The translations under genes were made by a program, and so were the position numbers. Positions 23,027-36,251 of a stretch of DNA of 64,000 nucleotides are shown here, piece after piece (within the stretch, counting starts at the first letter, position 1; each line of letters starts with the position of its first letter). The notes under the pieces were generated by a model. The model searched no databases and was not told the DNA's origin. It saw nothing but the letters and a program-made list of their open reading frames with translations. This DNA comes from an uncultured Lachnospiraceae bacterium (GTDB lineage: Bacteria; Bacillota; Clostridia; Lachnospirales; Lachnospiraceae): contig CALWLI010000001.1 of the NCBI GenBank assembly GCA_944381485.1, positions 1-64,000 of the forward strand. Reading direction: 5' to 3'.

Positions 23027-23101
23027 CGGGGTGTGGCTCAGTTTGGCTAGAGCGTCCGGTTAGGGACCGGGAGGTCGCAAGTTCAAATCTTGTCACTCCG
23101 A
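23027..23101 (+). tRNA. tRNA-Pro with anticodon AGG
   Basis: The acceptor stem CGGGGTG/CACTCCG begins with C, as is usual for bacterial tRNA-Pro. The D-stem is GCTC/GAGC. The anticodon stem TCCGG/CCGGG encloses TTAGGGA, so positions 34-36 are A-G-G. The T-arm is GCAAG/CTTGT and the discriminator is A. CCA is not encoded. Bacterial tRNA-Pro normally has UGG, GGG or CGG. A34 would likely need conversion to inosine, the TadA reaction known for tRNA-Arg(ACG). Confidence 0.93.
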
Positions 23102-23121
23102 CTACAGAGAACGAAAAGGAA

Positions 23122-23164
23122 GGACCCTGAGTATCGTTTACAGACGGTACTCAGGGTCTTTTCG
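23122..23164 (+). terminator. Terminator after tRNA-Pro
   Basis: GACCCTGAGTA pairs with TACTCAGGGTC (11 bp, extended by ATCG/CGGT pairing), followed by TTTT. Confidence 0.9.
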
Positions 23165-23291: not shown

Positions 23292-24212
23292 TTGAAAACA
23301 GAGTTTTTAAAAAGCTTTGTGGCAGTGGTGGAGAGCAAGAGCTTTTCCGTTGCCGCCAAGAGATTGTTCTTGTCTCAGCCCGCCATCAGCACTCACATAA
23401 AGCAGCTGGAGGAGGAACTGGGCGTCCAGCTTTTGACCAGGTCTACAAAGAATGTGCATCTGACGGAGACCGGACTTGCCTTCTATCCCTATGCCCAGAG
23501 ATTGATACGAACTGAGAGTGAGGCAATGTTTGCCCTTCACGGAAAGAAGAATACTCTCAGCGGGACAGTTCAGATAGCCGCCTCATCAGTGCCTGCAAAC
23601 TATATTTTGGTGGACTTTATCTCCTATATGGGCGACAAATATCAGGATATCAGCTTTAAGATCTCTGAGGGGGACAGCTCTGAGGTAATAAAAAATGTGC
23701 TGCATTTTGACACAGAGATAGGAGTCTGCGGATTTAAGCTTCCTAATAAGAAATGTCTGTATGAGGAGCTCTTTACGGACGACATAGTACTTATAACACC
23801 TAAGGATCCCTACTTCTCGGCTTTTTCCGGGAAAATGCAGCCGGAAGCTCTCCCTTCTCTCAGATTTATAGTAAGAGAGACCGGCAGCGGAACAGGCCTT
23901 GCAGCCCAAAATATTGAGCGAACTCTGGGCCTGTCGGAGAGGAATATGCGGGTCGTAGCTCAGGTGGAGGGAACAGAGCTCCTTAAGCGCTCGGTGGCCG
24001 CGGGAGTCGGCTGTGCCTTCATTTCAAAGCTTGCCGCCATGGATTATGTAAAGAGCGGAAAGGTCCTTATGTTCGAGTTTCCCGACATAAACTGTAAGAG
24101 GAGCTTTTATCTTGTACACCACAGGGAACGCATACTGGATCAGGCCGCAGCCATCACCATAAATGAGCTTTCAGAATACTGCAAGAAGAGAAATCAAAAG
24201 AAATCAAAGTAG
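23292..24212 (+). CDS. LysR-family regulator of the selenoprotein (Sao) cluster
   Basis: Transcription activator of 306 residues. The N-terminal helix-turn-helix is FLKSFVAVVESKSFSVAAKR with LSQPAISTHIKQLEEELGV. The rest is a periplasmic-binding-like effector domain, with SEGDSSEVIKNVLHF and RETGSGTGLAAQNIE. The start is TTG, 9 nt after AAGGGG. It lies at the left edge of the sao genes, converging with saoP. I recall NCBI naming a selenium-metabolism-associated LysR family, and this gene fits by context, but the specific subfamily needs a model search. It probably senses the cluster's substrate or selenium status. Confidence 0.85.
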   Translation: MKTEFLKSFVAVVESKSFSVAAKRLFLSQPAISTHIKQLEEELGVQLLTRSTKNVHLTETGLAFYPYAQRLIRTESEAMFALHGKKNTLSGTVQIAASSVPANYILVDFISYMGDKYQDISFKISEGDSSEVIKNVLHFDTEIGVCGFKLPNKKCLYEELFTDDIVLITPKDPYFSAFSGKMQPEALPSLRFIVRETGSGTGLAAQNIERTLGLSERNMRVVAQVEGTELLKRSVAAGVGCAFISKLAAMDYVKSGKVLMFEFPDINCKRSFYLVHHRERILDQAAAITINELSEYCKKRNQKKSK

Positions 24213-24240
24213 TTCACAAAAAGATATAAAATATTGCTGT

Positions 24241-24276
24241 AAAAAAGAGGGGCCGCTTCGCTGAAGCGGTCCCTCT
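24241..24276 (-). terminator. Terminator of saoP (minus strand)
   Basis: A 14-bp stem (AGAGGGGCCGCTTC with GAAGCGGTCCCTCT, one G-U) with a 3-nt loop is followed on the minus strand by TTTTTT. On the plus strand no T-run follows, so it mainly ends the saoP transcript. Confidence 0.85.
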
Positions 24277-24294
24277 CCTGATGTTAAAGCTCTG

Positions 24295-25122
24295 CTATGC
24301 CTCTCTCCATCTCAAGAGAAGCTTCTCTACCATCAACATTACGATATCTATCAAAAATCCTATTATACCCGCAATGATCATGTAGGCGATGACAGTATCT
24401 GTCTGCATATGTCCCTGAGCCTCCACCATGCAGTAACCGAAACCGGCACTGGTCGCTATGAACTCCGCTCATATGACTGACATCCAACCGAGACCTATGG
24501 CGAGTCTGATACCTGTGAGAACTCCGGGAAGAGATGCGGGAAGCACCACATCCTTAAGAACTCCTATGGTATTTGCCCCCATAGACCTGGCGGCGTTATA
24601 GAAATCTTTGCTGATATCCTGAACTCCTGCCACGGTATTTAATATTATGGTAAATATACCGCTGAAGGCTATCAGAAAGATAGTGGGTCCGTCACCTATG
24701 CCGAACCATACTATTGCCAGGGGTACCCAAGCCATGATAGGCACCTGTCTGAGTGAGTTGATAAAGGGCGACATGGTCGTCAGTACCTTGGGGAAAAAGC
24801 CCATAAGCATGCCTAAAGGATAGCCTACGATAAAGGCCACCAGAGAACCTATGAGAACTCTCCTCATAGTTATTCCCAGATTTTCAAGAACATAGAGATC
24901 CGTAAGGGAATATACTACCTGACCTAAAACATCCTCAAAATAGGGAAAAATAAAGGGCTGATCTACGACATGGGCCGCCACAGTCCAAATGAGACAGATA
25001 ATGGCCAGGGCTATAATGGCATGCAAATTGTAATTTTTCCCTCCCATCTTGCGCCAGCGTCGTCTGTCTGAATTTCGGGAAGCGGCAACCTGTCGATTTA
25101 AAGAACTCGCAGATTCACTCAA
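24295..25122 (-). CDS. saoP: ABC transporter permease, selenoprotein (SaoP), UGA at codon 218
   Basis: Inner-membrane permease of the nitrate/taurine importer type, 275 residues when the in-frame UGA at 24469-24471 is read as selenocysteine. Before it come about five hydrophobic segments and the EAA loop (NAARSMGANTIGVLKDVVLP, then PGVLTGIRLAIGLGWM). After it the frame continues AEFIATSAGFGYCMVEAQGH and a last TM, ending KLLLRWREA, exactly the end expected for this family. Family members normally have Ala, Val or Gly where U218 falls. The start is TTG behind AGGAGGAGAT. The gene is transcribed divergently from the other sao genes and alone; its ATPase and binding protein are at 26740 and 30636. 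A hairpin follows the UGA. Confidence 0.85.
24431..24451 (-). promoter_or_regulatory. Candidate SECIS hairpin of saoP
   Basis: On the minus strand, 17 nt after the UGA, CAGT-g-CCG pairs with CGG-tt-ACTG around the loop GTTT. A short hairpin with GU in its apical loop at this distance is what bacterial SelB binding requires. Confidence 0.6.
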
Positions 25123-25192
25123 AATATCTCCTCCTTTATTCAGTTTTCACTATAAATAATTATTAATATTTTCTGAGCATATCCTACCGGAA

Positions 25193-25273
25193 ATACTTAT
25201 TTGCAGAGTAGTAATATCATAAAAATTAATAAAGAAAAGGACACTTATTTACTTTTGTAATAAAAATAAGTAT
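25193..25273. promoter_or_regulatory. Divergent saoP/saoT control region with ACTTATTT repeats
   Basis: ATACTTATTT at 25193-25202 has its exact reverse complement AAATAAGTAT at 25264-25273, and a third copy ACACTTATTT lies at 25241-25250, making an inverted pair with a 13-nt gap at 25243-25271. The region separates divergent saoP and saoT. LysR regulators bind such interrupted dyads, so these are candidate operator sites; the assignment is inference. Confidence 0.5.
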
Positions 25274-25349
25274 GGGCTGTGATTTTAGGATATAGTAAAA
25301 AATGAAAAATAATGCAAGGGTGGAATAATTTTTTTTACAGGAGAATATA

Positions 25350-25604
25350 ATGGACAAGCCATGCATTGAATTTATAAGTGCATGCGGGTGATGTGAAATT
25401 TTTGCGGATCAGGTGGAATCCCTCAAAAATCAATATAAGGACCGCGTAAATGTGCGCATTTACAGGGCCGGAAAGGACTTTGACTATATCCCCAAATACG
25501 GCCTCATTACAAAGAGCATGTTGATAATAAATGAAAAAAAGGTTGTGAGAGATCTTACCAAAAAAAATGTCAGAGCTGCCTTTGAGGAGGCACTGAAAAA
25601 ATGA
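25350..25604 (+). CDS. saoT: Thioredoxin-like selenoprotein SaoT, copy 1, UGA at codon 14
   Basis: A small thioredoxin-like protein of 84 residues when the UGA at 25389-25391 is read as selenocysteine. The N terminus then reads MDKPCIEFISACGUC, with a redox motif C12-G-U14-C15 at the place of the thioredoxin CxxC. The rest carries GKDFDYIPKYG, KSMLIINEKKVV and a last helix AAFEEALKK. AGGAGA lies 5 nt before the ATG. Ordinary gene calling would either start internally at 25413 or miss it. The stop overlaps the saoE start as ATGA, so the two are translationally coupled. It is 50-60 percent similar by eye to the second copy at 28695. The likely role is metal or selenol transfer, or reduction, for SaoE. 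Confidence 0.88.
25398..25430 (+). promoter_or_regulatory. Candidate SECIS hairpin of saoT copy 1
   Basis: A lower stem ATTTTTG/CAAAAAT and an upper stem GGAT/ATCC, starting 14 nt after the UGA, enclose the loop CAGGTGGA. A GGU in the apical loop recalls the E. coli fdhF SECIS loop AGGUCU. Confidence 0.65.
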
Positions 25605-26728
25605 CATCATTTTTTTTATTCCTTTTAAGAGCTGTGGATTCAGGGTGGGGAATACTCTGCAGCTCATCAGTCTGGCTCCTGTTAAGCTTTCTGATCAGCG
25701 GATTCATCAGAGAATTCTTTGGATCTGACTGCCTTAAAAATACAGCTGTGGGCTCAAAAAAATTTACCGGGATAGTCCTTATGACCCTCTCGGGCCTGCT
25801 GATACCTGTGTGCAGCTGTGGCACTGCGATTTTGGGCATAGCCTGTTATTACAGTGGAGCTTATATCGGGCCCACCCTCGCTTTTATGACCGCAACTCCC
25901 ATGATAAATCCCATAGCTCTGATTTTGGTTTTCGGGCTCATGGGAAGAGAGGTGGGCCTATTTTATCTTGTTACGGGACTTACAGTACCCCTTATCCTGG
26001 GAGCCCTGTCAAACCTTCTTTTGGGGAAATCGCTTTACAGAGAGAAAAGCTTCATAAAAGAGACATTACATCCGGTGACGAATTCCGGGACAGGAGGAAG
26101 GAGCCTCATAAAGGCTGAGCCTGAGGACAAGCCCGCTTTTTGGGAGAGGATAATAAGAGGATTGAGGTCTTCCTTCGGAGATTTTTCTCTTATGATAAGT
26201 AAATATACAGTCACAGCTGTGATTTTTGCGGGCATATTTCTTTCAATAGTACCCGGCTCCTTCATACAGGAGTATCTTGCCGAGGCTCAGACCGTCACTC
26301 CTTGGGGAATACTTGTAGTGGGTGCACTTACATATGTGTGTGCTGTTGTTCATATTCCTTTTATAGCGGCTGTAATTGCCTCGGGGGCCCCACCGGGAGT
26401 GGCAGTCACCTTTTTGATGGCGGGAGCTGCCACAAATATCCCTGAGCTGATAACCATAGCAAAGACCATGGGAAAGAGGACAGCGCTTACCTACAGCATG
26501 TTTGTAAGCCTCATGGCTTTAGGCGCGGGATATATTGCAGATGCAGTCATAGGCCGGGAGATTTCGGAAATGCCGGACTTTGCAGTCACCCGGGGAGCCA
26601 TAGCAAATGCCAATATGCTGATAACAGATTTTCCCGACCTGCTACAAACATTGTGCAGCATTATTATTTTATGCCTTGCCTTTGCGGGATTCATGAAGAC
26701 CGGATCGGCAGAAAACAGGAAGAAGTAA
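25601..26728 (+). CDS. saoE: Permease-type efflux transporter SaoE, copy 1
   Basis: Polytopic membrane protein of 375 residues in the predicted-permease family that includes the organoarsenical exporter ArsP (DUF318/COG0701). Two blocks of about four TM helices flank a polar loop (about 150-185). The family signature PVCSCGTAILGIACYYSG is followed by MTATPMINPIALIL, and the second half has the related GVAVTFLMAGAATNIPELI. A cysteine pair in CSCG can bind thiophilic metals or metalloids. It overlaps saoT by 4 nt and is followed 11 nt later by saoA. The export role is inferred from ArsP. Confidence 0.88.
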   Translation: MTSFFLFLLRAVDSGWGILCSSSVWLLLSFLISGFIREFFGSDCLKNTAVGSKKFTGIVLMTLSGLLIPVCSCGTAILGIACYYSGAYIGPTLAFMTATPMINPIALILVFGLMGREVGLFYLVTGLTVPLILGALSNLLLGKSLYREKSFIKETLHPVTNSGTGGRSLIKAEPEDKPAFWERIIRGLRSSFGDFSLMISKYTVTAVIFAGIFLSIVPGSFIQEYLAEAQTVTPWGILVVGALTYVCAVVHIPFIAAVIASGAPPGVAVTFLMAGAATNIPELITIAKTMGKRTALTYSMFVSLMALGAGYIADAVIGREISEMPDFAVTRGAIANANMLITDFPDLLQTLCSIIILCLAFAGFMKTGSAENRKK

Positions 26729-26739
26729 AGGAGCTTAAG

Positions 26740-27579
26740 ATGTCGATAAGTGTAGAAAATATTACAAAGAGCTTTCAGGCAAGAAGGAAGGGTGAGGACA
26801 GGCTTGTGGTTCTCAAAGACATTTCCTTTTCTGTAAACGATGGAGAATTTGTAAGTCTCTTAGGACCCTCAGGCTGCGGAAAGACGACGACACTCACTAT
26901 CATAGCCGGCTTTCAGAAGGCCGATGAGGGGAGGATTATGGTAAAGGGACGCGAGGTGACAAAGCCGGGGCCTGACAGAGCTTTTATGTTCCAGAACTAC
27001 GCTCTCTTTCCCTGGCTTAAGGTTGGGGAAAATATAGAATATCCTATGATAAAAAAGAAGCTTAATAAGACGGAGAGAGAAAAGAGACTTATGGAGCTTC
27101 TTTCCATAGCACAGATGGAGGAGTACAAGGATTACTATATCCATGAGATCTCAGGAGGAATGAAGCAGAGGGTAGCCCTTTTGAGAGCTCTCGCCTGCGA
27201 CCCGGAGGTGCTTCTCATGGACGAGCCTCTGGGCGCCATAGACTTTCAGATGCGGCACATGCTACAGCAGCAGCTTGAAAGCATACTCATGCAGAAGAAC
27301 TGTACCTCACTGATGGTGACTCACGATGTGGATGAGTCCGTTTACCTGAGCGACAGGGTGGTCATCATGTCCAGAGACCACGGCAGGATACTTGAGGAGG
27401 TAAAGATAGACCTGCCACGTCCGAGAGACAGGGAGAGTGAAAAGTATCATTCTTATGTGGAGCACATCACCAATATCTTAAAGACAGCACTAAACGGAGA
27501 TGTTGTCACTCAGGAAGACAAGGATATTATGGAATTTATCAGAAAAAAGGAGGAAGAAGGCAAGGCGGATATTGCCTAA
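26740..27579 (+). CDS. saoA: ABC importer ATP-binding protein SaoA
   Basis: ATPase of a nitrate/sulfonate/taurine-type importer, 279 residues. Walker A is GPSGCGKT (42-49), the Q-loop lies in MFQNYALFPWLKVGENI, the signature is ISGGMKQRVALLRAL, and Walker B is VLLMDEPLGAIDF, with the H-loop in LMVTHDVDESVYLSDRV. AAGGAG lies 6 nt before the ATG. A longer reading from 26653 runs back into saoE and is not used. Its permease (saoP) is transcribed on the other strand and its binding protein (saoB) is 3 kb downstream. Confidence 0.92.
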   Translation: MSISVENITKSFQARRKGEDRLVVLKDISFSVNDGEFVSLLGPSGCGKTTTLTIIAGFQKADEGRIMVKGREVTKPGPDRAFMFQNYALFPWLKVGENIEYPMIKKKLNKTEREKRLMELLSIAQMEEYKDYYIHEISGGMKQRVALLRALACDPEVLLMDEPLGAIDFQMRHMLQQQLESILMQKNCTSLMVTHDVDESVYLSDRVVIMSRDHGRILEEVKIDLPRPRDRESEKYHSYVEHITNILKTALNGDVVTQEDKDIMEFIRKKEEEGKADIA

Positions 27580-27600
27580 GTAATTATTTATGGAAAAATA

Positions 27601-28221
27601 ATGGAACAAAATGTACACAAGAAATTTAACAAAAGACAAAATGACCTTCGTCTCTATATTATAAATAAGGTCATAGATGAAAAATCCTTTAATATAAAAA
27701 AGAACGGAAAAGAGGCTATGAGGGACCTTGATATGTCTCAGGAGGAGTATGATGAGGCGACAGAGGTACTTAAGTTTCAGGACGGATTGGTGACGGATGA
27801 GGAGGACAATGTGGATTTCATCTATCCGGTGTCAGCTCTGCCCACGAATCACCATGTAAGGACAGATGACGGCAGAGAGTTTTGTGCCATGTGTGCCATA
27901 GACTCCATGGGGGCAGCATTCACACTCCACACAGATACTGTGGTGGATTCAGTATGCGCAGTATGCGGAGAGCCTGTACATGTGGAGATAGAGGGAGGAA
28001 AGATAAAGTTTTATTCCCCTGAAGGGCTCCACGCCTTGACCTTCCCACTGGGGGAGATATCCAACTGGTCAGGCAGCTGCTGAAATACCATGAATTTCTT
28101 CTGCAGTTCTGCAGAATTCGATAAGTATGCCGAGGACATGGAGCTTGACAAAAACATAATAATAAAATGCGATGCAAAAAAGGCCCTTGAGGCGGCAAAG
28201 GATATTTTTTCTGTCGATTAA
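27601..28221 (+). CDS. saoL: MerB-like organometal lyase selenoprotein SaoL, UGA at codon 161
   Basis: The 206-residue protein aligns by eye with MerB, the alkylmercury lyase that breaks carbon-mercury bonds. A winged-helix-like N-terminal half is followed by LPTNHHV and EFCAMCAIDSMG, where C98 and D101 match MerB C96 and D99. A Cys pair C119/C122 and YSPEGLHALTFPLG follow. The frame meets UGA at 28081-28083 and continues WSGSC-U-NTMNFFCSS. U161 then falls on MerB C159, the second catalytic cysteine, followed by the same FF pair. If the UGA is read as stop, the catalytic centre is lost. The ribosome site is weak. A hairpin follows the UGA. The bond cleaved need not be C-Hg; the substrate is unknown. 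Confidence 0.87.
28099..28116 (+). promoter_or_regulatory. Candidate SECIS hairpin of saoL
   Basis: TTCTGCA pairs perfectly with TGCAGAA around the loop GTTC, starting 15 nt after the UGA. This is the strongest of the five candidates. Confidence 0.7.
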
Positions 28222-28262
28222 AATAATAAAATTTAATATACAAAGCTTAAGGAGGAAAAATA

Positions 28263-28595
28263 ATGAAGGTTGCATATTTGCTGGAGTCAAATAACGTAAG
28301 GGATATACTTGAGAACATGATAGTTCCTCAGCTGGAAGAGGGAAGACACGTGGCTGAGGTTGCGGGAATGATGTTCTTCTATGACAATACCTTTATCATG
28401 CAGGAGGGATCTGATCTTGGAGAGAGGATAGCCGAGCTTGCGGACAAGCTGGGAATACTTCTTATGTGCTGTGACAGATGCTGTTATCAGAGAGATATTG
28501 CAGACAAGCTTATAGCTCCCTGCGGAATAGGATGCTTCCCCAATGTATATGCCGCATTGGCCCCTGCAGGAGTTGATCAGGTAATAACACTCTAA
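28263..28595 (+). CDS. saoD: DsrE-like cysteine-rich protein SaoD
   Basis: The 110-residue protein has the overall pattern of DsrE/DsrF-like sulfur-relay proteins: N-terminal strand KVAYLLES, a middle MMFFYDNTFIM and ADKLGILLMCCDRCC. Six cysteines fall in two groups, C69-C70-x2-C73-C74 and C87-x3-C91 in the APCGIGCFPNVYAAL loop. They could bind or relay a thiophilic ion, selenium or sulfur. AAGGAGG precedes the ATG. It lies between saoL and the second saoT-saoE pair. No UGA interrupts it. The assignment to DsrE is moderate, and the position within the cluster is the stronger evidence. Confidence 0.75.
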   Translation: MKVAYLLESNNVRDILENMIVPQLEEGRHVAEVAGMMFFYDNTFIMQEGSDLGERIAELADKLGILLMCCDRCCYQRDIADKLIAPCGIGCFPNVYAALAPAGVDQVITL

Positions 28596-28616
28596 AATCG
28601 CAGAGACATAAAAAGG

Positions 28617-28652
28617 GGGAGCGCTGCAGACCGGAAGGTAAGCAGTGCTCCC
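28617..28652 (+). other. Hairpin between saoD and saoT copy 2
   Basis: GGGAGCGCTGC pairs with GCAGTGCTCCC (11 bp, one G-U) around a 14-nt loop. Only TGTTTGTG follows, a poor T-run. It may be a weak terminator or processing site that lowers expression of the downstream half of the cluster. Confidence 0.5.
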
Positions 28653-28694
28653 TGTTTGTGAAAAATAAAGAGCTTCACAGAGGGAGGGAAGGAT

Positions 28695-28952
28695 ATGAAT
28701 AAGCCTTGTGTGGAATATATCTGTGCATGTGCGTGATGCGAGGTATATGTGGGGTTCGTTGAATCCCTTAAGAAAAAATATGAGGGCAGGGTGGAGACAG
28801 TCATCTACAAAGCGGGGAAGGACTTTGACTATATCAAAAAATATGGGGCAGTATCTAAAAGCCTTCTGGTGATAAACGAGTCGAAGGCTGTCCGCAACAT
28901 AAACAAAACCACCATAGCTCAAGCATTTGAGGAGGCGATCAGCACATGTTAG
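28695..28952 (+). CDS. saoT: Thioredoxin-like selenoprotein SaoT, copy 2, UGA at codon 14
   Basis: The second SaoT has 85 residues with UGA at 28734-28736 read as selenocysteine: MNKPCVEYICACAUC, motif C12-A-U14-C15 with an extra C10. GKDFDYIKKYG and KSLLVINESKAVRNI repeat the pattern of copy 1, and a terminal Cys ends the protein (AISTC). AGGGAGGGAAGG lies just before the ATG. Its stop codon overlaps the second saoE start by 7 nt. The UGA is in exactly the same codon as in copy 1, which argues strongly against a sequencing error. Confidence 0.88.
28751..28767 (+). promoter_or_regulatory. Candidate SECIS hairpin of saoT copy 2
   Basis: GGGGTTC pairs with GAATCCC (one G-T) around loop GTT, starting 14 nt after the UGA. 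Confidence 0.6.
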
Positions 28953-30052
28953 GAGAGTTTATAAAATTTGTACCGGAGGTAATATACTCATCGTTCAACA
29001 TGCTGTGCGGATCATCGGGTTGGATGATAGTAAGCTTTTTTATAGCAGGTGCATTGCATGAATTTCTAAGCCCTGAGAGGCTGAGAAGAAGTTCCATAGG
29101 AACCAAAAAGTTTACAGGTGTATTGTGGAGCACCCTCTCCGGAGCCCTGATACCCATATGCAGCTGTGGAACGATCCCTTTGGGAATAAGCCTTTATTAT
29201 TCGGGAGCTTTTTTGGGGCCTACACTTGCCTTTATGACCTCATCACCCATGATAAATCCTATGGCTGTGATACTTGCCTTCGGGCTTTTGGGGCCTCAGA
29301 TCTGGATAATATATTTTCTCACAGGACTGATAGCTCCTCTCATAATAGGAACCATAGCAAACAAGTTTGCAGGAGATGAGATCTGCATATTCGGGCCTGA
29401 CGGGAAACCTGATGAGGCTCCGGGGATCAAGCTGGAAGAGGAGAAGAGAAGCATACTCTCTCAGATAATCTCAGGGCTGCACTGGTCTTTTACGGAACTT
29501 GCCTTGACTGTTGCAAAGTATACGGTTTCGGGAATGCTGGTTGCCGGACTGCTATTCAGCATAGTTCCCCAGTCATTTATTCAAAATTACCTGGGAAATC
29601 CGGGGTTTATCTCCCTCCTGGGTATAACTGTCATAGCAGCTCTGATGTATGTATGTGCAGTGGGACATATGCCCTTTATAGCCGCCCTGGTTGCAAGCGG
29701 AGCGGCTCCCGGAGTAGCCATAACCTTCCTCATGGCGGGAGCCTCGACGAATATTCCGGAGCTTATAACCATATCAAAGACCATAGGCAAGCGAGCCGCC
29801 TTTATGTATTTCTTCATGGTGACTCTCATATCAAACTGTGTAGGCTATCTGGCAAATCAGCTTTTGATGCCGGGCTTTAAGCCGGTAATAGATTTTGATA
29901 CTACCCACAAGACCATAGAGATGGCAAATCACTTTATTGTTCCCATGCCGGAGTGGTTTCAGTACACATGCAGCTTCGTACTCATAGGCTATGCATGTAT
30001 ATCTGTATTTCAGTGGTTTAAAAAGAACTTTATTAAGCCCAAGGAAGCGTAA
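28946..30052 (+). CDS. saoE: Permease-type efflux transporter SaoE, copy 2
   Basis: The 368-residue paralogue of the permease at 25601, in the ArsP-like DUF318 family. PICSCGTIPLGISLYYSGAF is followed by FMTSSPMINPMAVILAFGLLG; the second half has GVAITFLMAGASTNIPELI. The central loop (about 150-175) differs from copy 1. It overlaps saoT copy 2 by 7 nt. Paralogous T-E pairs at both ends of the lyase genes suggest either two substrates, or a hetero-oligomeric pump; the sequence does not decide. Confidence 0.88.
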   Translation: MLGEFIKFVPEVIYSSFNMLCGSSGWMIVSFFIAGALHEFLSPERLRRSSIGTKKFTGVLWSTLSGALIPICSCGTIPLGISLYYSGAFLGPTLAFMTSSPMINPMAVILAFGLLGPQIWIIYFLTGLIAPLIIGTIANKFAGDEICIFGPDGKPDEAPGIKLEEEKRSILSQIISGLHWSFTELALTVAKYTVSGMLVAGLLFSIVPQSFIQNYLGNPGFISLLGITVIAALMYVCAVGHMPFIAALVASGAAPGVAITFLMAGASTNIPELITISKTIGKRAAFMYFFMVTLISNCVGYLANQLLMPGFKPVIDFDTTHKTIEMANHFIVPMPEWFQYTCSFVLIGYACISVFQWFKKNFIKPKEA

Positions 30053-30078
30053 AAGAAGGAGATTAGGACAGTCGTAAG

Positions 30079-30636
30079 ATGAGAAAGAATGAGAGCGAAG
30101 AAAAAAAGATCAGCTTATCTTATATCCTTATAAGGGCCTTGATAGTTTTGGCTGCACTTATTGTGGCCTTCCTGCTGAACCGATTTCTTTTGGAAAAGGA
30201 GGCCGAGCAGAAGAGCTCAGGCAGAGGATTTGTTTATGATCCAATGGTTCCTGAGGATAATAAGACCCTTGTGGACTTTAAGGCGGCTTACCCTGACAGA
30301 CGTGTGGTCATGGCTTGTGAAAATGATGTCACTGATGACGGAATAGCTGATCTTCTTGTTATCTATAAGGAAGACCACGAGCATGAAGGCAGGAAAGAGG
30401 AAATAACGAGGCTTGTAGTATGCATTGTTCAAGAGGATGGAAGCTACGTATATACGGAGCCCATACCCGCCCCCATAGAGAATCAGGGGATACAATTTAA
30501 AAATATAGACCGTGAAGGGGAGATGGAATTTATTGTGGCCGGAGAGAAGAACGGAAAGGCGGGGTATGCCATTTACAGGATGATAGACGGCGTTCCCACG
30601 GATCTGTTCGGTGACGGAATGGAAGATTGCTGCTGA
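30079..30636 (+). CDS. saoC: Membrane-anchored Cys-Cys-terminal protein SaoC
   Basis: The 185-residue protein has one N-terminal TM anchor (about 15-38), then an extracytoplasmic domain with VFG-free beta-rich repeats such as VTDDGIADLLVIYKED and REGEMEFIVAGEKNGKAGYA. It ends EDCC. Two cysteines at the very C terminus could form a redox or metal-docking site on the outside of the membrane. I recall an NCBI name for this family describing a Cys-Cys-COOH (seleno)protein. The stop TGA overlaps the saoB ATG (TGATG), so the two are coupled. Readthrough would add only 14 unrelated residues, so the TGA is taken as a true stop. Confidence 0.78.
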   Translation: MRKNESEEKKISLSYILIRALIVLAALIVAFLLNRFLLEKEAEQKSSGRGFVYDPMVPEDNKTLVDFKAAYPDRRVVMACENDVTDDGIADLLVIYKEDHEHEGRKEEITRLVVCIVQEDGSYVYTEPIPAPIENQGIQFKNIDREGEMEFIVAGEKNGKAGYAIYRMIDGVPTDLFGDGMEDCC

Positions 30637-31430
30637 TGGATATTATCAGAAAGAGCTTTATCTGCGGAGCCTTATTTGTAGCTGTCCTCTTTACGGCGGG
30701 ACTGTTACTTCCGAAAGAGGAACCGAGAAATCCGGAAGTGAAGCTCAGGGTAGGAGCGGGAGATGACATTTCAGGACTTTTTCTCAGAGAGGTGGAGGCC
30801 GAATCGGCGGGAGAGCTTATACTATCTGATGACTTTATGGAGGGCTACGAGTTCAAGGATTGCTGAAGTAATACAGCACAATGGGCCTTGAGCTCATACG
30901 AGATAGATGCGGCCTTTTCCTGTGCCCACATGGCCAAGCATCTTATAGAAGAAAATGGGGATTTTATCATATATGCCCCGATAATCATGAACTCGGAATT
31001 TTTGGCCACACAAAAGGACCTGTCTGAGATAAAGTCGGTTGCCATAGGACAAAACAGGAAATATCTGGGGGATTCCATCAAGGAGAGCTATGACAATGTG
31101 AAGAGCATAGTTGAGATCAATTCCGCAAGCTTGCAGTTTGCCCTGGTGACAGGAAATACAGATGCTGTGGTACTTGACATAACCAAGCTTTCGGCAATGA
31201 GAGACTGCAGCTTCTACCCTGTGAGACAAGACGACTATATCTCCTATGTGCTTTTGATAAATAAGAGGATAATAGGAACAGAGGCCTTTGACCGGTTTAC
31301 AGAGTGCTGCGACAGGGTATCTGAGAGACTGGGAAATGAATCAGCTCTAATATCCGCCATTTCTGACTACACGGGAGAAAGCTTTGAAATGCCTTCGGAA
31401 AACCATATAAAATTTCTCAAGATAAACTGA
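30636..31430 (+). CDS. saoB: ABC importer substrate-binding selenoprotein SaoB, UGA at codon 77
   Basis: Substrate-binding protein of 264 residues, tethered by one N-terminal TM (about 5-25). No lipobox is seen. The frame is interrupted by UGA at 30864-30866 and continues DC-U-SNTAQWALSSYEIDAAF, a typical helix of NMT1/TauA-like binding proteins, whose family pattern has a short residue at this place. The remainder has NGDFIIYAPIIMNSEF, AVVLDITKL and a C-terminal helix. The two halves are 7 codons apart as separate readings and in the same frame, so one gene is certain. Sec next to Cys76 suggests direct capture of a thiophilic ligand at the binding cleft. Confidence 0.85.
30881..30897 (+). 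promoter_or_regulatory. Candidate SECIS hairpin of saoB
   Basis: ATGGGC pairs with GCTCAT (one G-T) around loop CTTGA, starting 14 nt after the UGA. Confidence 0.6.
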
Positions 31431-31431
31431 A

Positions 31432-31472
31432 AGGACTGCTGAAGCTCAAAGGCCTAAGCAGTCCTGAATTTG
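31432..31472 (+). terminator. Terminator at the end of the sao genes
   Basis: AGGACTGCT pairs perfectly with AGCAGTCCT. Only GAATTTGATTT follows, so the T-run is weak. It lies between the converging saoB and response regulator genes. Confidence 0.6.
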
Positions 31473-31507: not shown

Positions 31508-32203
31508 TCAGGGGACGAAATAATATCCCTTTCCCCAAGCTGTCATAAGGTGAGCGGGCTCGGAGGGATCCGACTCGATCTTGTCCCTTATCCTCTTTAT
31601 GTATACAAGCATCTTTGTCCTGTCAAACTCTCCTGTACCCCAAACATCCCTGAAAAGCTCTTCCTTTGAGATGATCTCTCCGGGCCTCTCCATAAGCTTA
31701 CAGAGTATGGAAAACTCCTTGGAGCTTAGGGATATTTCTTTTCCCTTGCGAAAGGCCTTTTGTATATTCGGCTTCAGGACAAAATCTCCGCAGCTTATCT
31801 CTGAAACAAGTGAATGGCCCTCGACAGAGTATTCCTTGTTCCTTCTGAGAAGAGCCCTTATCTTGGAGACGAGGACAGCGGTGCTGAAGGGCTTTGTAAT
31901 ATAGTCATCAGCCCCAAGACCGTATCCCTTTATCATGGAGGCATCCTCTCCCAAGCCGCTGAGAACGATGACCGGGACAAAGATCCCCCTATCACGTATG
32001 GACTCAAGGAAGGAGAAACCGTCAGTCCCAGGCATAAGTATATCCAAAAGAACTATGTCAAAGCTCCTGCGGGAAAGAAGATCGAGGGATTCCTCTGCGC
32101 TGCCTGAGGTGGCAACAATCATTCCCTCCGCACTGAGAGCGGCTTTTATGGCTGTTCTCACAGCCTTTTCATCATCTGTTACAAGTACAGAAATAGGTTC
32201 CAT
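31508..32203 (-). CDS. OmpR-family response regulator
   Basis: Receiver plus winged-helix regulator of 231 residues. Receiver: acid pocket DD at 10-11, phosphoacceptor D54 in IVLLDILMPGTDGFSFLE, and ITKPFS with the conserved Lys. The DNA-binding domain (about 130-231) ends WGKGYYFVP. It is divergent from the kinase at 32332, so the 128-nt gap probably holds shared promoters. It converges on the sao cluster, but whether it controls it is unknown. Confidence 0.94.
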   Translation of the reverse strand: MEPISVLVTDDEKAVRTAIKAALSAEGMIVATSGSAEESLDLLSRRSFDIVLLDILMPGTDGFSFLESIRDRGIFVPVIVLSGLGEDASMIKGYGLGADDYITKPFSTAVLVSKIRALLRRNKEYSVEGHSLVSEISCGDFVLKPNIQKAFRKGKEISLSSKEFSILCKLMERPGEIISKEELFRDVWGTGEFDRTKMLVYIKRIRDKIESDPSEPAHLMTAWGKGYYFVP

Positions 32204-32331: not shown

Positions 32332-34002
32332 ATGAATGAGCTTAAAGATAAATCGGAAAAAAAATGGGGATTTAAGTTTTATGCGGTGATCGCTGTGATC
32401 GGCATAATCACAGTGGTATTTGCCGCGTTTTTTTCTTATCATACCGTAAAGAATGCTCTTGTGGAGAGTGAGACAAAGAGCCTTATGAGTCTTGCTGAGA
32501 CAGGAGCCTCAAGCCTTGAGGAGAATTTCCGGGAGAAAGAAAATCTTATTTTGAGTATTTACGGAGATGACTTCCATTCCATGGAGGATTTTGAGGCCTC
32601 CATGGACAAGATATTTTGCGATAAAAGATTTTATACAAAAAATGACTACGAGCATTTGCCTGAAAAGAATGGGGATCAGTGCAAAAAAGCAATGGCTGAG
32701 CCTGATAAAGTAATAAGCGGACCTACGGTTTACAGGTACGGCAGGTACTATGTTTTCTATATGACAAAGGCCATAACGGTTGAGGGGGAGAGAGTGGGGG
32801 TCCTTCAGTTCGAGTGGAATCTCAACAGCATATTCGATCAGCTGGAGACTCTGTCGGAACTCGAGATAAACAATAACGGATACTGCTATGTGAATAACAG
32901 AGAAGGGCTGACAGTTATGGCTGAGGATGATCACCACAGGGAGCTTTCAGGCTCAGGAGGGCCGGAGCCTGAAGGAAAGAAGGCGAAGGCGGGGATATAT
33001 CCCTCATATACCCTGAAAAACGGAGTGCCGGTTAAAAGCAATACTCTGACAGCAGCCGCCTCAGCTGAAGCGGGAGACGAGCTGTTTACTGTCTATGTGG
33101 TTGAGGATTACGATCTTCTGGTAAAGCCTATAGAGAGGCTGTCCTTTTATCTTACACTGTCGGGTGCTGTGATCTTTCTGTGGCTTACGGCTTCGTTTTT
33201 GTTCTACATGAGGACTGCAAAGAGGGAATCGGAACTGAGCCTACGGCTTAAATACGAGGAGAGCCTTGAAAAGAGGGATGAACTGCTGAGGATATATAAC
33301 AGAGACAAGGAGCTGACCTCACTTTGGGGAGTGCTGGCTCATGAGTTCAATAATCAGATGACACCGATACTTATATACGCTGAGCTGTTTAAGAATAACA
33401 GCACGGTGTCAAAGCTCCTTCCGGAAGAAACAGAAGAGCTCTATCAGGCTTGTGAACATTGCTCGGCTCTCTCAAAACAGATGCTTCAGTTTTCAAGAGC
33501 CGGAAGAGCGGAGAGAAAGAGGGAGGAATTCAATGCCTCACAGGAGGTTAGGTTGAGCTTAAGAATGGTGGAGAGGCTTATTCCCGACAATGTGGAATTC
33601 AAATATTTTGTCAGCAAAAAGGACTTTTATGTTTTGGGACAGACAGGAATGCTTTCACAGATAATACTTAACCTCTCCAATAATGCTCTGAGAGCCCTTA
33701 AGGACAAGGAGGGAGGAGTGCTGGAGATCACCTTCGGGAGAAGCAAGGAAAACGACAAATTTGTAAATCTGATAGTGGAAGATAACGGCACAGGCATTCC
33801 AGGGGAGCTTCAGCGTCATATTTTCGAGCCGTTTTTTACCACAAAGCCCCCGGAGGAGGGAAGCGGCATAGGACTTACTGTTGTGGCAAGGCTTTTGCAG
33901 GAAAACGGAGGGTACATAGATGCGGCATCAGAGCCGGGTCGGGGGAGCCGTTTCACAGCAGTTCTGCCCTGCACAGTAAGGGAGGATAAAGCTGACAGGT
34001 AG
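32332..34002 (+). CDS. Sensor histidine kinase with dCache-like sensor
   Basis: Membrane kinase of 556 residues, presumably partnering the divergent regulator. TM1 is at about 18-38. An extracellular domain of about 230 residues resembles a Cache sensor (SETKSLMSLAETGASSLEEN, then GVLQFEWNLNSIFDQLETL and YCYVNNREGLTVM). TM2 is at about 272-292. The DHp helix is unusual: VLAHEFNNQMTPILIYAELF, of the AHEFNN type seen in soluble NtrB-like kinases, with H337 phosphorylated. HATPase motifs are LNLSNNALRALK and GSGIGLTVVARLL. Cache domains often sense organic acids or amino acids; the ligand is unknown. Confidence 0.92.
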   Translation: MNELKDKSEKKWGFKFYAVIAVIGIITVVFAAFFSYHTVKNALVESETKSLMSLAETGASSLEENFREKENLILSIYGDDFHSMEDFEASMDKIFCDKRFYTKNDYEHLPEKNGDQCKKAMAEPDKVISGPTVYRYGRYYVFYMTKAITVEGERVGVLQFEWNLNSIFDQLETLSELEINNNGYCYVNNREGLTVMAEDDHHRELSGSGGPEPEGKKAKAGIYPSYTLKNGVPVKSNTLTAAASAEAGDELFTVYVVEDYDLLVKPIERLSFYLTLSGAVIFLWLTASFLFYMRTAKRESELSLRLKYEESLEKRDELLRIYNRDKELTSLWGVLAHEFNNQMTPILIYAELFKNNSTVSKLLPEETEELYQACEHCSALSKQMLQFSRAGRAERKREEFNASQEVRLSLRMVERLIPDNVEFKYFVSKKDFYVLGQTGMLSQIILNLSNNALRALKDKEGGVLEITFGRSKENDKFVNLIVEDNGTGIPGELQRHIFEPFFTTKPPEEGSGIGLTVVARLLQENGGYIDAASEPGRGSRFTAVLPCTVREDKADR

Positions 34003-34136: not shown

Positions 34137-36251
34137 ATGGGAGAGGTAAAGAAGCTTAAAGCCATATGCGGCATATGCCCTGACAAGTGCGATATAGTGG
34201 CAACAGTTGAGGACGGAAGGCTTGTAAAGGTGGAGCCTGACAGAGATTCAAAGAGGGGCAGAGTATGTCCCAGAGGAGCATTGGCTCCTGAGATCGTATA
34301 CAGCCCTAAAAGAATATTAAAGCCTCTTATAAGGACCGGGGAGAAGGGAAGCGGTGAGTTTAAAGAGGTGGAGTTTTCAGAGGCTCTGGACTATGCCGCC
34401 TCAAAAATAAAGGAGGTAGCGGATAAGTACGGACCGGATGCTCTTGTGTCCTATGTGGGCTCATCCGGAAGAGAGCCCTCGACTATGCGCTGCTTTGCGG
34501 GAAAGGACGCCTTCTTTTCACACTTGGGAGGTATAAACGATACCACATGCAGCTCAACCTGTAACTTTGCCTCCTATGTGATGGCTCCGGTGACGGTGTT
34601 CGGAATAAGCCAGCCTGAGGTCTACCCGGATGTGGCGAATTCCTCACTTATATTCGTTATGGGAAAAAATCCCGCCACGGACTCCGGGTATCCTGCTCTC
34701 TACCATAACCTGAAAAAAGCTCGCGAGAGAGGGGCTAAGGTCATTGTCATAGATCCCAGAGGAGACTGCAACAACCGAGAATATGACGAGTGGGTTCCTG
34801 TTATCCCGGGAACAGACGGTGCTCTTGTAATGGCCATGCTGAAGCTTGTAGTTGAGTCTTGCCGCTATGACAGGGACTTTACGGAAAAGTATGTATCAGG
34901 CTTTGAGGAGCTATCATCCTATCTCTCAGGGCTCAAGCTCTCGGAGCTCTCAGAGGCCTGCGGAATACCTCAGGATAAAATAGAGGAGCTTACCGAGGCC
35001 TTTCTCAGAGAAAAATCTTCATTTATAGCCTACACAGGTACTGAATACCAATATTCAGGCATACAGACCAACAGGGCCCTCTGGATACTTTGGGGTATCT
35101 GCGGCAAGCTGGACGTGGCAGGAGGAATGAGATTTTCGGGAAAATCATACAGGGAAATGAAGATGAGAGCTGTGCCCGAGGGCAAAAAGCCCATAGGCTG
35201 CGACAGCCATCCTCTCTACTACATGATGAACGGGGGAGCTCAGCTGGGAGAAGAATTTCTCACGGCGGTTTTGGAGGACCGACCTTATCCTGTGAGAGGA
35301 TATCTTCTCTGCGCGGGAGGTACATCTCTTACCTTCCCTGAGCAGAAGAGGTGGGAGGAAGCCTACAGGAAGCTTGATATATTTATTGTGCTTGAGAGAT
35401 TCATGACCAATGACGCGAGGTTCGCGGATGTTATTTTCCCCGCCACCACCTACTTTGAAAATGAGTCCATAGTAAAGATCCCCGGAGGAACACAGCTGAG
35501 AAGGAGGGTCATAGAGCCTGTGGGGGAGGCAAAGTGCGACACCTTCATACTTCAGGCTTTGGCGGAAAGGCTCGGATTCGGAGAGGCCTATCCAAAGAAC
35601 GATGAGGAGATGCTTTTGTGGCTTGCAGGAGGAGATCAGGGCTTTGTGGATGAGCTTAAGAAAGCTCAATACGGCATAATGGACAGGACCTTTGATGAGG
35701 AGAAAAAATACGAGTCGGGAATGCTCAGGGCTGACGGAAAAGCGGGATTTCCCACCCCAAGCGGAAAACTCGAAATTATTTCTTCTGTAATAGAAAGTGC
35801 GGGATATTCAAGCATTCCTGAATATCATGACATAAGAGAATTAAAGGAATTCGGCTCAAAAGAGGAATTCCCCATGATGATGACTACAGGAGCAAGAAGC
35901 CGTATCCGCTTTGCAAGCTTCGGTCCAAATGTGGATGAGATAGCAAAAGCGGAGCCGTATCCTCTCATGAGCATAGGTGAGGAGGACGCAAGGGAAAAGG
36001 GAATTTCCGAGGGAGATATGGTGAAGGTGGAGACTGCCTTCGGAAGCGGAGAATTTAAAGCACATATCTGTCTTATGGCAAAGGGCTGCATACACATACC
36101 CTTCGGAGGCGGAAGTCCATATATGACAGGTGGATGGAAGGAAGGAAACGTAAACAGACTGGCTTCCATGAGATACACGGATCCTCTGTCAGGCTATATA
36201 ACCTACAAGTCCTTGCCCTGCAGGATAAAAAAGGCGGAAAACAATGCATAA
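34137..36251 (+). CDS. Molybdopterin-dependent oxidoreductase, formate dehydrogenase/thiosulfate reductase-like
   Basis: The 704-residue protein belongs to the DMSO-reductase superfamily. An N-terminal [4Fe-4S] site has Cys at 11, 14, 18 and 44 (ICGICPDKC, then GRVCPRG). FVMGKNPATDSGYP and VIVIDPRGD are pterin-contact motifs, and the C-terminal beta-barrel domain has EDAREKGISEGDMV. The likely metal ligand is Cys in DTTCSSTCNF (about 138-142); no in-frame UGA occurs, so it is not a selenocysteine enzyme. No signal peptide or Tat motif is seen, so it is cytoplasmic. It overlaps the MobA-MoeA-MobB gene by 8 nt, coupling enzyme to cofactor supply. The substrate is uncertain. Confidence 0.9.
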   Translation: MGEVKKLKAICGICPDKCDIVATVEDGRLVKVEPDRDSKRGRVCPRGALAPEIVYSPKRILKPLIRTGEKGSGEFKEVEFSEALDYAASKIKEVADKYGPDALVSYVGSSGREPSTMRCFAGKDAFFSHLGGINDTTCSSTCNFASYVMAPVTVFGISQPEVYPDVANSSLIFVMGKNPATDSGYPALYHNLKKARERGAKVIVIDPRGDCNNREYDEWVPVIPGTDGALVMAMLKLVVESCRYDRDFTEKYVSGFEELSSYLSGLKLSELSEACGIPQDKIEELTEAFLREKSSFIAYTGTEYQYSGIQTNRALWILWGICGKLDVAGGMRFSGKSYREMKMRAVPEGKKPIGCDSHPLYYMMNGGAQLGEEFLTAVLEDRPYPVRGYLLCAGGTSLTFPEQKRWEEAYRKLDIFIVLERFMTNDARFADVIFPATTYFENESIVKIPGGTQLRRRVIEPVGEAKCDTFILQALAERLGFGEAYPKNDEEMLLWLAGGDQGFVDELKKAQYGIMDRTFDEEKKYESGMLRADGKAGFPTPSGKLEIISSVIESAGYSSIPEYHDIRELKEFGSKEEFPMMMTTGARSRIRFASFGPNVDEIAKAEPYPLMSIGEEDAREKGISEGDMVKVETAFGSGEFKAHICLMAKGCIHIPFGGGSPYMTGGWKEGNVNRLASMRYTDPLSGYITYKSLPCRIKKAENNA

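Follow-up and report, generated by a model that had tools for sequence, protein, structure and literature searches.

The SAO operon, whose name stands for 'Sec-assisted organometallic', is a set of genes credited to Haft and Gwadz 2023 (J Bacteriol 205:e0025922) in the sections of PMC13188914 that deal with it, and selenocysteine (Sec) is listed there in SaoL (as CU), SaoB (as CU), SaoP, SaoT and SaoX. We analyzed a window of 64,000 nucleotides from an uncultured Lachnospiraceae bacterium (positions 1 to 64,000 of contig CALWLI010000001.1, assembly GCA_944381485.1) and found that eleven genes at 23292-31430 are a further member of this published, computationally predicted system. An earlier note, made by a model from the sequence alone, had reported eleven genes here and given the Sao family names; all of the genes are present and the names proved correct. 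The system is not undescribed, SAO having already been published as a prediction. The proteins listed in PMC13188914 appear with Sec here also. SaoT is given as UxxC in that listing, whereas both SaoT proteins of this genome are CxUC, and the locus further stands out in that its two SaoT-SaoE pairs differ in lineage, its gene blocks follow a mosaic order, its saoX gene is located off the contig, and its SaoC ends in a plain Cys-Cys.

Individual parts of SAO also resemble other described systems. The catalytic residues of MerB in the mer operon are Cys96, Asp99 and Cys159, as given in the portions of PMC4525700 and PMC8261052 that treat the enzyme. SaoL has the catalytic positions of MerB (structures 1s6l and 5c17) in common, with Sec in place of Cys159. 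Where the mer operon has its transport proteins and reductase, SAO has an ATP-binding cassette (ABC) importer and a permease exporter. The nitrate, bicarbonate, taurine and sulfonate importers (NrtB, CmpB, TauA, SsuA) resemble SAO in the families of their permease and ATPase and in the fold of their binding proteins; SAO differs from them by invariant Cys or Sec in its binding proteins and by Sec in its permease. SaoE matches the ArsP_1 permeases (PF03773) and, below cut-off, the SO_0444 Cu/Zn efflux family (NF033936), and is set apart from both by an equivalog family of its own (NF040736) and by its pairing with SaoT. The Tso selenoprotein operon (Haft and Tolstoy 2025, as cited in the relevant part of PMC13188914) has partners other than those of SAO, and SaoT is weakly similar to its TsoX (18.8 and 17.8 bits for the two copies, far below the cut-off of 52).

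The cluster consists of a LysR gene, a reverse-strand saoP, and the forward-strand series saoT1-saoE1-saoA-saoL-saoD and saoT2-saoE2-saoC-saoB (Table 1), with saoE overlapped by the preceding saoT in both copies. All eleven proteins exceeded curated NCBIfam cut-offs, ten of them those of Sao models (SaoP, A, B, C, D, E, L and T) and one that of a LysR model. Another contig of the same genome (G000 C3) carries saoX, a sixth recoded Sao gene with one TGA inside (464.3 bits, cut-off 300); this gene, the selenium-linked family of the LysR protein and an adjoining two-component system had not been covered by the earlier note. For comparison we used 52 SAO loci (L010-L061), eight of which are regarded as near-duplicate strains and some of which are ended by contig ends. 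These came from 80 stretches kept by a scan out of 220 that were SaoL-like, with L062-L089 left out as having a SaoL/MerB-like match without any other convincing sao gene.

Table 1. Features of the SAO cluster and its immediate surroundings, in window coordinates.
Feature	Position	Strand	Evidence and remarks
Left boundary of cluster: hairpin with a few T behind it, flanked by tRNA-Pro (23027-23102) and lysR	23123..23158	+	Read in sequence
LysR regulator	23292..24212	+	NF040786 'selenium metabolism-associated LysR', 291.2 bits, cut-off 250
saoP, ABC permease	24295..25122	-	NF040733, 390.6 bits, cut-off 295; UGA 24471-24469, residue 218
Divergent saoP/saoT1 gap with facing repeats at ~25178-25294; candidate regulator (LysR) site	25123..25349	.	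By eye
saoT1, thioredoxin-like CxUC protein	25350..25604	+	NF040730, 108.6 bits, cut-off 65; UGA 25389, residue 14
saoE1, ArsP_1/SO_0444-type permease, faster-evolving copy	25601..26728	+	NF040736, 378.1 bits, cut-off 325
saoA, ABC ATPase	26740..27579	+	NF040729, 428.3 bits, cut-off 360
saoL, MerB-like lyase	27601..28221	+	NF040728, 188.4 bits, cut-off 140; UGA 28081, residue 161
SECIS-like (bacterial) hairpin of saoL, 7-bp stem, loop GUUC	28099..28116	+	1% of 300 shuffles as good
saoD, DsrE-related protein	28263..28595	+	NF040732, 171.5 bits, cut-off 169 (narrow)
Hairpin in saoD-saoT2 gap, at junction of two lineage blocks	28617..28652	+	Read in sequence
saoT2, thioredoxin-like CxUC protein	28695..28952	+	NF040730, 102.6 bits, cut-off 65; UGA 28734, residue 14
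saoE2, ArsP_1/SO_0444-type permease, slower-evolving copy	28946..30052	+	NF040736, 539.5 bits, cut-off 325
saoC, protein with Cys-Cys end	30079..30636	+	NF040734, 173.1 bits, cut-off 80
saoB, substrate-binding protein with N-terminal helix (predicted membrane anchor)	30636..31430	+	NF040727, 218.4 bits, cut-off 140; UGA 30864, residue 77
Hairpin after saoB; right boundary of cluster	31432..31465	+	Read in sequence
Response regulator beside cluster	31508..32203	-	OmpR/PhoB-type models, none over cut-off among those listed
Sensor histidine kinase beside cluster	32332..34002	+	Profile match

Five of the genes (saoP, saoT1, saoL, saoT2 and saoB) contain an in-frame UGA inside continuous homology, as the earlier note had observed, and conservation does not end there as it would at a plain stop. 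When compared with four relatives, amino acid identity downstream of each UGA remained roughly at its upstream level, and past each of the five the nonsynonymous rate was below the synonymous rate (dN < dS) or the latter was saturated; for saoT1 the comparison with L010 was left out because that locus is without saoT1 and would pair a T2-type gene. The recoded codon was UGA or Cys across the aligned loci, with UGA in 51 of 52 at SaoL position 161 (Cys in one), in 40 of 42 at the SaoP site (Cys in two) and in 33 of 42 at the SaoB site (Cys in nine). All 26 aligned SaoL homologues, from at least 120 listed, ended exactly at the Cys before the UGA, indicating that gene callers stop at this codon. 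We also found selA, tRNA-Sec (selC), selD and selB in the bacterium's own genome (selB 365.9 bits, cut-off 242.25), which is the full set of genes that the earlier note had proposed looking for. The five genes are likely read through UGA as selenocysteine. Were the UGAs genuine stops in decayed or split genes, the weak selenocysteine insertion sequence (SECIS) signal of the window's saoP, saoB and saoT1 would be expected, but identity and purifying selection would not persist beyond each UGA, nor would almost every aligned locus have either UGA or Cys at that codon. The genome also holds the sel genes, and we consider this explanation hardly credible. SaoC showed no sign of recoding here, where its Cys-Cys end is followed by a UGA overlapping the saoB ATG; 32 of 37 loci end in Cys-Cys and four in Cys-Sec, with one not aligned.

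Hairpins downstream of the UGAs were scored by a simple bacterial-SECIS rule made for this analysis, with a score of at least 9 required and 300 shuffles for comparison. The earlier note had described a hairpin after each UGA, which was true for saoL (1% of shuffles as good) and saoT2 (0.3%); a strong hairpin also follows in the off-window saoX (1%). No strong hairpin followed saoT1 (32% of shuffles as good), saoP (78%) or saoB (none found), and the 4-bp hairpin with a GUUU loop visible in saoP was not significant, with 10 of 100 codon shuffles as good. Across related loci (computed fractions converted to counts) the rule was satisfied at 49 of 50 saoL sites, 32 of 41 saoT sites, 23 of 33 saoB sites and 5 of 41 saoP sites, and also by 37 of 90 ordinary UGA stops in a comparison set. 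Two hairpin registers were seen by eye in the aligned saoL sites, though the single-sequence rule fits nearly all of them, and consensus folding of these sites gave no structure. Folding energy after the UGA did not beat shuffles in any of the five genes (z from -1.0 to 0.6), so that minimum free energy was uninformative as a SECIS test. The two flanking hairpins that the earlier note had called terminators are present, but a terminator scan gave about as many sites (8) as shuffled sequence did (mean 7.7) and flagged neither these two nor the hairpin in the saoD-saoT2 gap.

Several side observations concern the selenocysteine genes and recoded sites. The genome's selD (G000 C10:4792-5721, L095) carries one in-frame TGA, and SelD itself is likely a selenoprotein. 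Matches to tRNA-Sec of equal score were observed at a contig end (G000 C31:9749-9841) and a contig start (C27:7-99), probably reflecting an assembly overlap, and these two contigs may adjoin. A cysteine desulfurase-family gene follows selB (G000 C27:3497-4648, L092), and its product bears a likeness to SclA, a Sec lyase, at 362.7 bits, short of the cut-off of 525. In SaoT the location of Sec varies: of 40 loci, 16 have it at position 12, 19 at position 14 and five at neither, in every case beside an invariant Cys15. On the alignment, selenocysteine has shifted between two places of a single active site.

The evidence for a metal-carbon lyase is found in SaoL. In alignments to 1s6l and 5c17, the MerB residues Cys96, Asp99 and Cys159 are matched by C98, D101 and Sec161 of SaoL, with Ser at the Asp99 place in 5c17, and C98, D101 and C160 of SaoL were invariant in all 52 loci. 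Because these residues fall on the MerB catalytic set and are conserved, SaoL retains the parts for metal-carbon protonolysis, and a selenolate would stand in for the thiolate of MerB. The protein nevertheless scored below both NCBIfam MerB cut-offs (41.2 bits against 193 and 39.3 against 200). Within the bacterium's own order, SaoL was found in one of 246 sampled genomes, namely that of the window.

No Pfam match was found for SaoB at E 0.1. Its predicted model (predicted local distance difference test score 89.4) has the two-lobe fold of type II binding proteins with an N-terminal anchor helix, and the 50 listed matches in the PDB included MqnA, PqqT, TauA and SsuA, with a best E of 4.8e-11 and template modelling (TM) scores of 0.43-0.63 by query. 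Residues D75, C76, C/U77, C96 and D181 were invariant in 37 SaoB sequences, and in the model each sits at the end of a strand (68-73, 92-96 or 177-181) or directly behind it; in such binding proteins the strand-end side is the ligand-binding side. SaoX was likewise modelled, using the protein of L010, as TauA-like (best E 4.5e-15), and C69, D70, H71, M72, H135, C/U212 and C250 were invariant in 27 sequences. Since the two binding proteins hold invariant Cys and Sec, and in SaoX also His and Met, as potential ligands, the models and alignments favour a soft metal cargo. The Sec of the permease SaoP stands at an Ala of the aligned NrtB and CmpB, presumably in the helix after the ATPase-contacting loop, going by general permease anatomy.

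The two SaoE copies matched Pfam ArsP_1 at 144.4 and 169.6 bits against a cut-off of 32.3, and the below-cut-off SO_0444 model was the only other NCBIfam match for either. No PDB relative of SaoE was found by sequence at E 0.1. Its C72 and C74 (a CSC pair) were present in 39 of 39 loci, and position 237 was Cys in 40 of 41 and Sec in one, the latter being the SaoE of L023 (L023:6983-8101) with an in-frame UGA at this place, which suggests that this residue is a possible metal ligand. In SaoD, C70, C73 and C91 were invariant in 33 of 33 loci, and a sequence search gave no credible PDB relative (best E 0.53).

We propose that SAO imports a thiophilic organometal, most likely an organomercurial, cleaves its carbon-metal bond through SaoL and exports the metal through SaoT and SaoE, a reading that we rate at even chances of being correct. 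SaoB and SaoX would capture the compound on Cys, Sec and His ligands, and SaoP with SaoA would transport it inward. In SaoL, Cys98 and Sec161 would grip the metal from two sides, and Asp101 would assist in supplying the proton by which the carbon part is freed, in the manner of MerB. SaoD and SaoT would then receive the metal by thiol/selenol exchange for SaoE to expel, with SaoC, by way of its terminal Cys-Cys or Cys-Sec, as a possible membrane-side relay. There is no mercuric reductase, unlike in the mer system, and the product would leave the cell without being reduced; LysR would couple expression to selenium supply. The earlier note had outlined a scheme in which a soft, thiophilic compound is imported, cleaved with Sec chemistry and its product exported; families, conserved residues and sel genes agree with that scheme, while its cargo is something we infer only. 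The literature searched gave no biochemical account of an organometal substrate for SAO.

Genome-level searches for SelA, MerA and HgcB covered the genomes of 35 of the 52 loci. MerA was above cut-off in one of these, that of L032; Clostridium hydrogeniformans and Tissierella pigra are among the SAO carriers in which it was not. It was not above cut-off in the window's own genome (best 44.7 bits against 454.45, in an assembly about 91% complete), and the cluster contains none. SelA was above cut-off in all 35, compared with 45 of 246 genomes of the bacterium's own order, a count that includes its own genome and some weak matches to a low cut-off. A link to mercury methylators was also considered and rejected: HgcB, the ferredoxin of mercury methylation, was above cut-off in four of the 35 (L034, L041, L048 and L058, none titled Firmicutes), but in 61 of 115 genomes in the class of one of these.

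Several results weigh against the proposed organometal reading. Besides the three UGAs without a strong hairpin, saoX is unlinked to the cluster in its own genome, one SAO genome has MerA, HgcB is no commoner in SAO genomes than expected, and those relatives of SaoE that bear a name transport arsenicals or Cu/Zn. To bring in a poison just to send it out again also looks futile unless cleavage is itself a gain. We collected 147 open reading frames of at least 125 amino acids within 1.8 kb of sao matches, after near-duplicates and saoX were removed (a wider first list held 280). No merA, merB, merT or merP was among their 25 commonest families in each library, and three broad MerR-family regulators were the only ones of that kind. 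The commonest neighbours were 17 of the 147 that match a double-cubane reductase model and 8 that match the selenium LysR model, all with E-values no higher than 1e-20; the cluster's own LysR belongs to the latter model, and this pattern suits selenium metabolism no less well than the organometal reading. Two of the reductase matches were checked singly and both were over the cut-off; in the window's own genome the reductase is on another contig. This reductase is provisionally tied to selenium metabolism in part of a preprint (PMC10418091), where the legend of Fig. 5 also names Sao genes as members of methyltransferase clusters with methyl-selenide as their presumed substrate. Together with the presence of SelA in every SAO genome searched, these neighbours would fit a role in selenium scavenging, with organoselenium imported, selenium freed by SaoL or its partners for SelD, and Sec used for selenylsulfide exchange with the cargo. 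We rank organoselenium second because the conserved chemistry of SaoL fits metal-carbon bonds: the Cys/Cys/Asp protonolysis set of MerB is fully conserved and, as far as we know, protonolysis of this type does not suit a C-Se bond. An ArsP-type exporter and binding proteins with Cys, His and Met suit a metal ion better, and a system built of selenoproteins might be regulated by selenium irrespective of its cargo. We judge scavenging to be rather improbable.

A cargo of organoarsenical (or organotin, organolead or organotellurium) would make SaoL an anaerobic carbon-metalloid lyase whose product is exported by an ArsP-like SaoE. By Pfam SaoE is an ArsP_1 permease, the family to which we take the methylarsenite exporter ArsP to belong, and an importer of the taurine, sulfonate or nitrate type could suit a larger organic compound. 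The single additional NCBIfam match of both SaoE copies is nevertheless to a Cu/Zn family, no ars gene was among the 25 commonest neighbour families, and cleavage of C-As bonds by MerB is not known; we judge such a cargo to be distinctly unlikely. The export activity of ArsP on methylarsenite is taken from the portion of PMC11653729 on that protein. It could also be imagined that cleavage is secondary and that soft metals (selenol- and thiol-bound methylmercury or Hg) are stripped mainly to protect the cell's own selenoproteins. Such rescue of ligands would agree with SelA in all 35 genomes, the selenium LysR and Sec at nearly every station, but it leaves the invariant full MerB triad and the need for an ABC importer unexplained, and we hold it to be quite improbable. 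Our preferred reading remains that a thiophilic organometal, in the first place an organomercurial, is imported, cleaved and exported.

Within that reading, a more specific and doubtful suggestion is that SAO is the missing oxygen-free route of methylmercury breakdown, with a MerB carrying Sec for Cys159, a Sec-gated ABC importer, and a permease in place of mercuric reductase. It would have been overlooked because standard annotation truncates the enzyme at the UGA of its catalytic residue. Gut microbes degrade methylmercury, and merB was lacking in human faecal samples with inferred methylmercury loss, the latter by Rothenberg 2016 as told in PMC8220164, both according to the parts of that article on the gut. 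In a clinical study, the abundance of mer genes did not follow that of methylmercury in faeces, as stated in the relevant section of PMC5534341. If the suggestion is true, truncation at UGA in annotation would explain gut methylmercury loss without detectable merB, and SAO supplies a concrete candidate enzyme, importer and exporter for anaerobic methylmercury clearance. It would also mean that Sec binds metal all the way through transport and cleavage and does not act in redox catalysis. According to a 2021 survey (PMC8261052), a homologue of MerB occurs without MerA in 895-906 genomes, whose listed genera include Clostridioides and Clostridium, and SaoL may be part of this group.

The two saoT-saoE pairs noted earlier are both present but they do not represent a doubling, as the trees place them in different SAO lineages and do not support a tandem duplication. 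In the SaoE tree, E1 grouped with the E1 of L010 and with L011 (99/92 support), near Dorea-type single copies, whereas E2 grouped with the E2 of L010 and with L024, from Negativibacillus (99/97 support). The end branches were 0.8 for E1 and 0.032 for E2. Quick trees of the other proteins placed P, T1, D and X on the side of L011, followed by Dorea-type or other Lachnospiraceae loci, and T2, C and B with L010, followed by L024, L021, L025 and L026; L was nearest to L010 and L011 and then a mixed set. For SaoA, L024 (0.70) was as close as L023 (0.69) and L012 (0.73), and its placement rests on L011 (0.38). The ratio dN/dS was 0.124 for saoE1 and 0.022 for saoE2 with silent sites nearly saturated, and E1 keeps the CSC motif. 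Judged from these trees, the cluster is a mosaic of one SAO lineage (saoP-T1-E1-A-L-D, with the off-window saoX) and another (saoT2-E2-C-B), with the hairpin of the saoD-saoT2 gap lying where the two meet. The likeliest history is that a T2-E2-C-B block of another SAO lineage joined or partly replaced a Dorea-type operon, with T1-E1 now under weaker constraint. The near relative L010 has the mosaic in common, and its saoT1 is reduced by eye to a 3' end piece before saoE1 (L010:7653-7960).

Two other roles for the locus were considered and rejected. A plasmid-borne resistance module was not supported, as the 46 plasmid records matching SaoL were all below 60% identity (the best ten, annotated merB, at 24-33%) and SaoB had no plasmid match. 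For an anti-phage system, SaoL and SaoC, the two proteins tried, gave no PADLOC match. Two metagenome-assembled genomes, of Desulfuromonas (L060:4890-14030) and Desulfatitalea (L034:7354-11447), hold a SaoL without the SAO importer nearby. In both it stands beside a related 4Fe-4S dicluster/cysteine-rich protein (with a VTT domain found in L034) and near a homologous protein of 290-298 amino acids that is ~65% identical between them (with a YdjY domain in L060), and in L060 the region also follows a tripartite ATP-independent periplasmic (TRAP) transporter. From its gene content this arrangement looks like a second setting of SaoL.

To the right of the cluster, the response regulator and sensor histidine kinase have relatives at other SAO loci. 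The response regulator was 71% identical in L010, 61% in L011 and 48-50% in L013 and L018, and the kinase, sensor part included, was 74% identical beside the cluster in L010, 57% in L011 and 37-39% in L013, L017 and L018. A shared regulator motif was sought and dropped, as the sequences upstream of saoX and in relatives were too AT-rich for a convincing motif by eye. Farther along the window, 34137-36251 encodes a molybdopterin oxidoreductase, kin to thiosulfate reductase and formate dehydrogenase and below the cut-offs of 21 listed families, followed by a MobA-MoeA-MobB triple fusion at 36244-38583.

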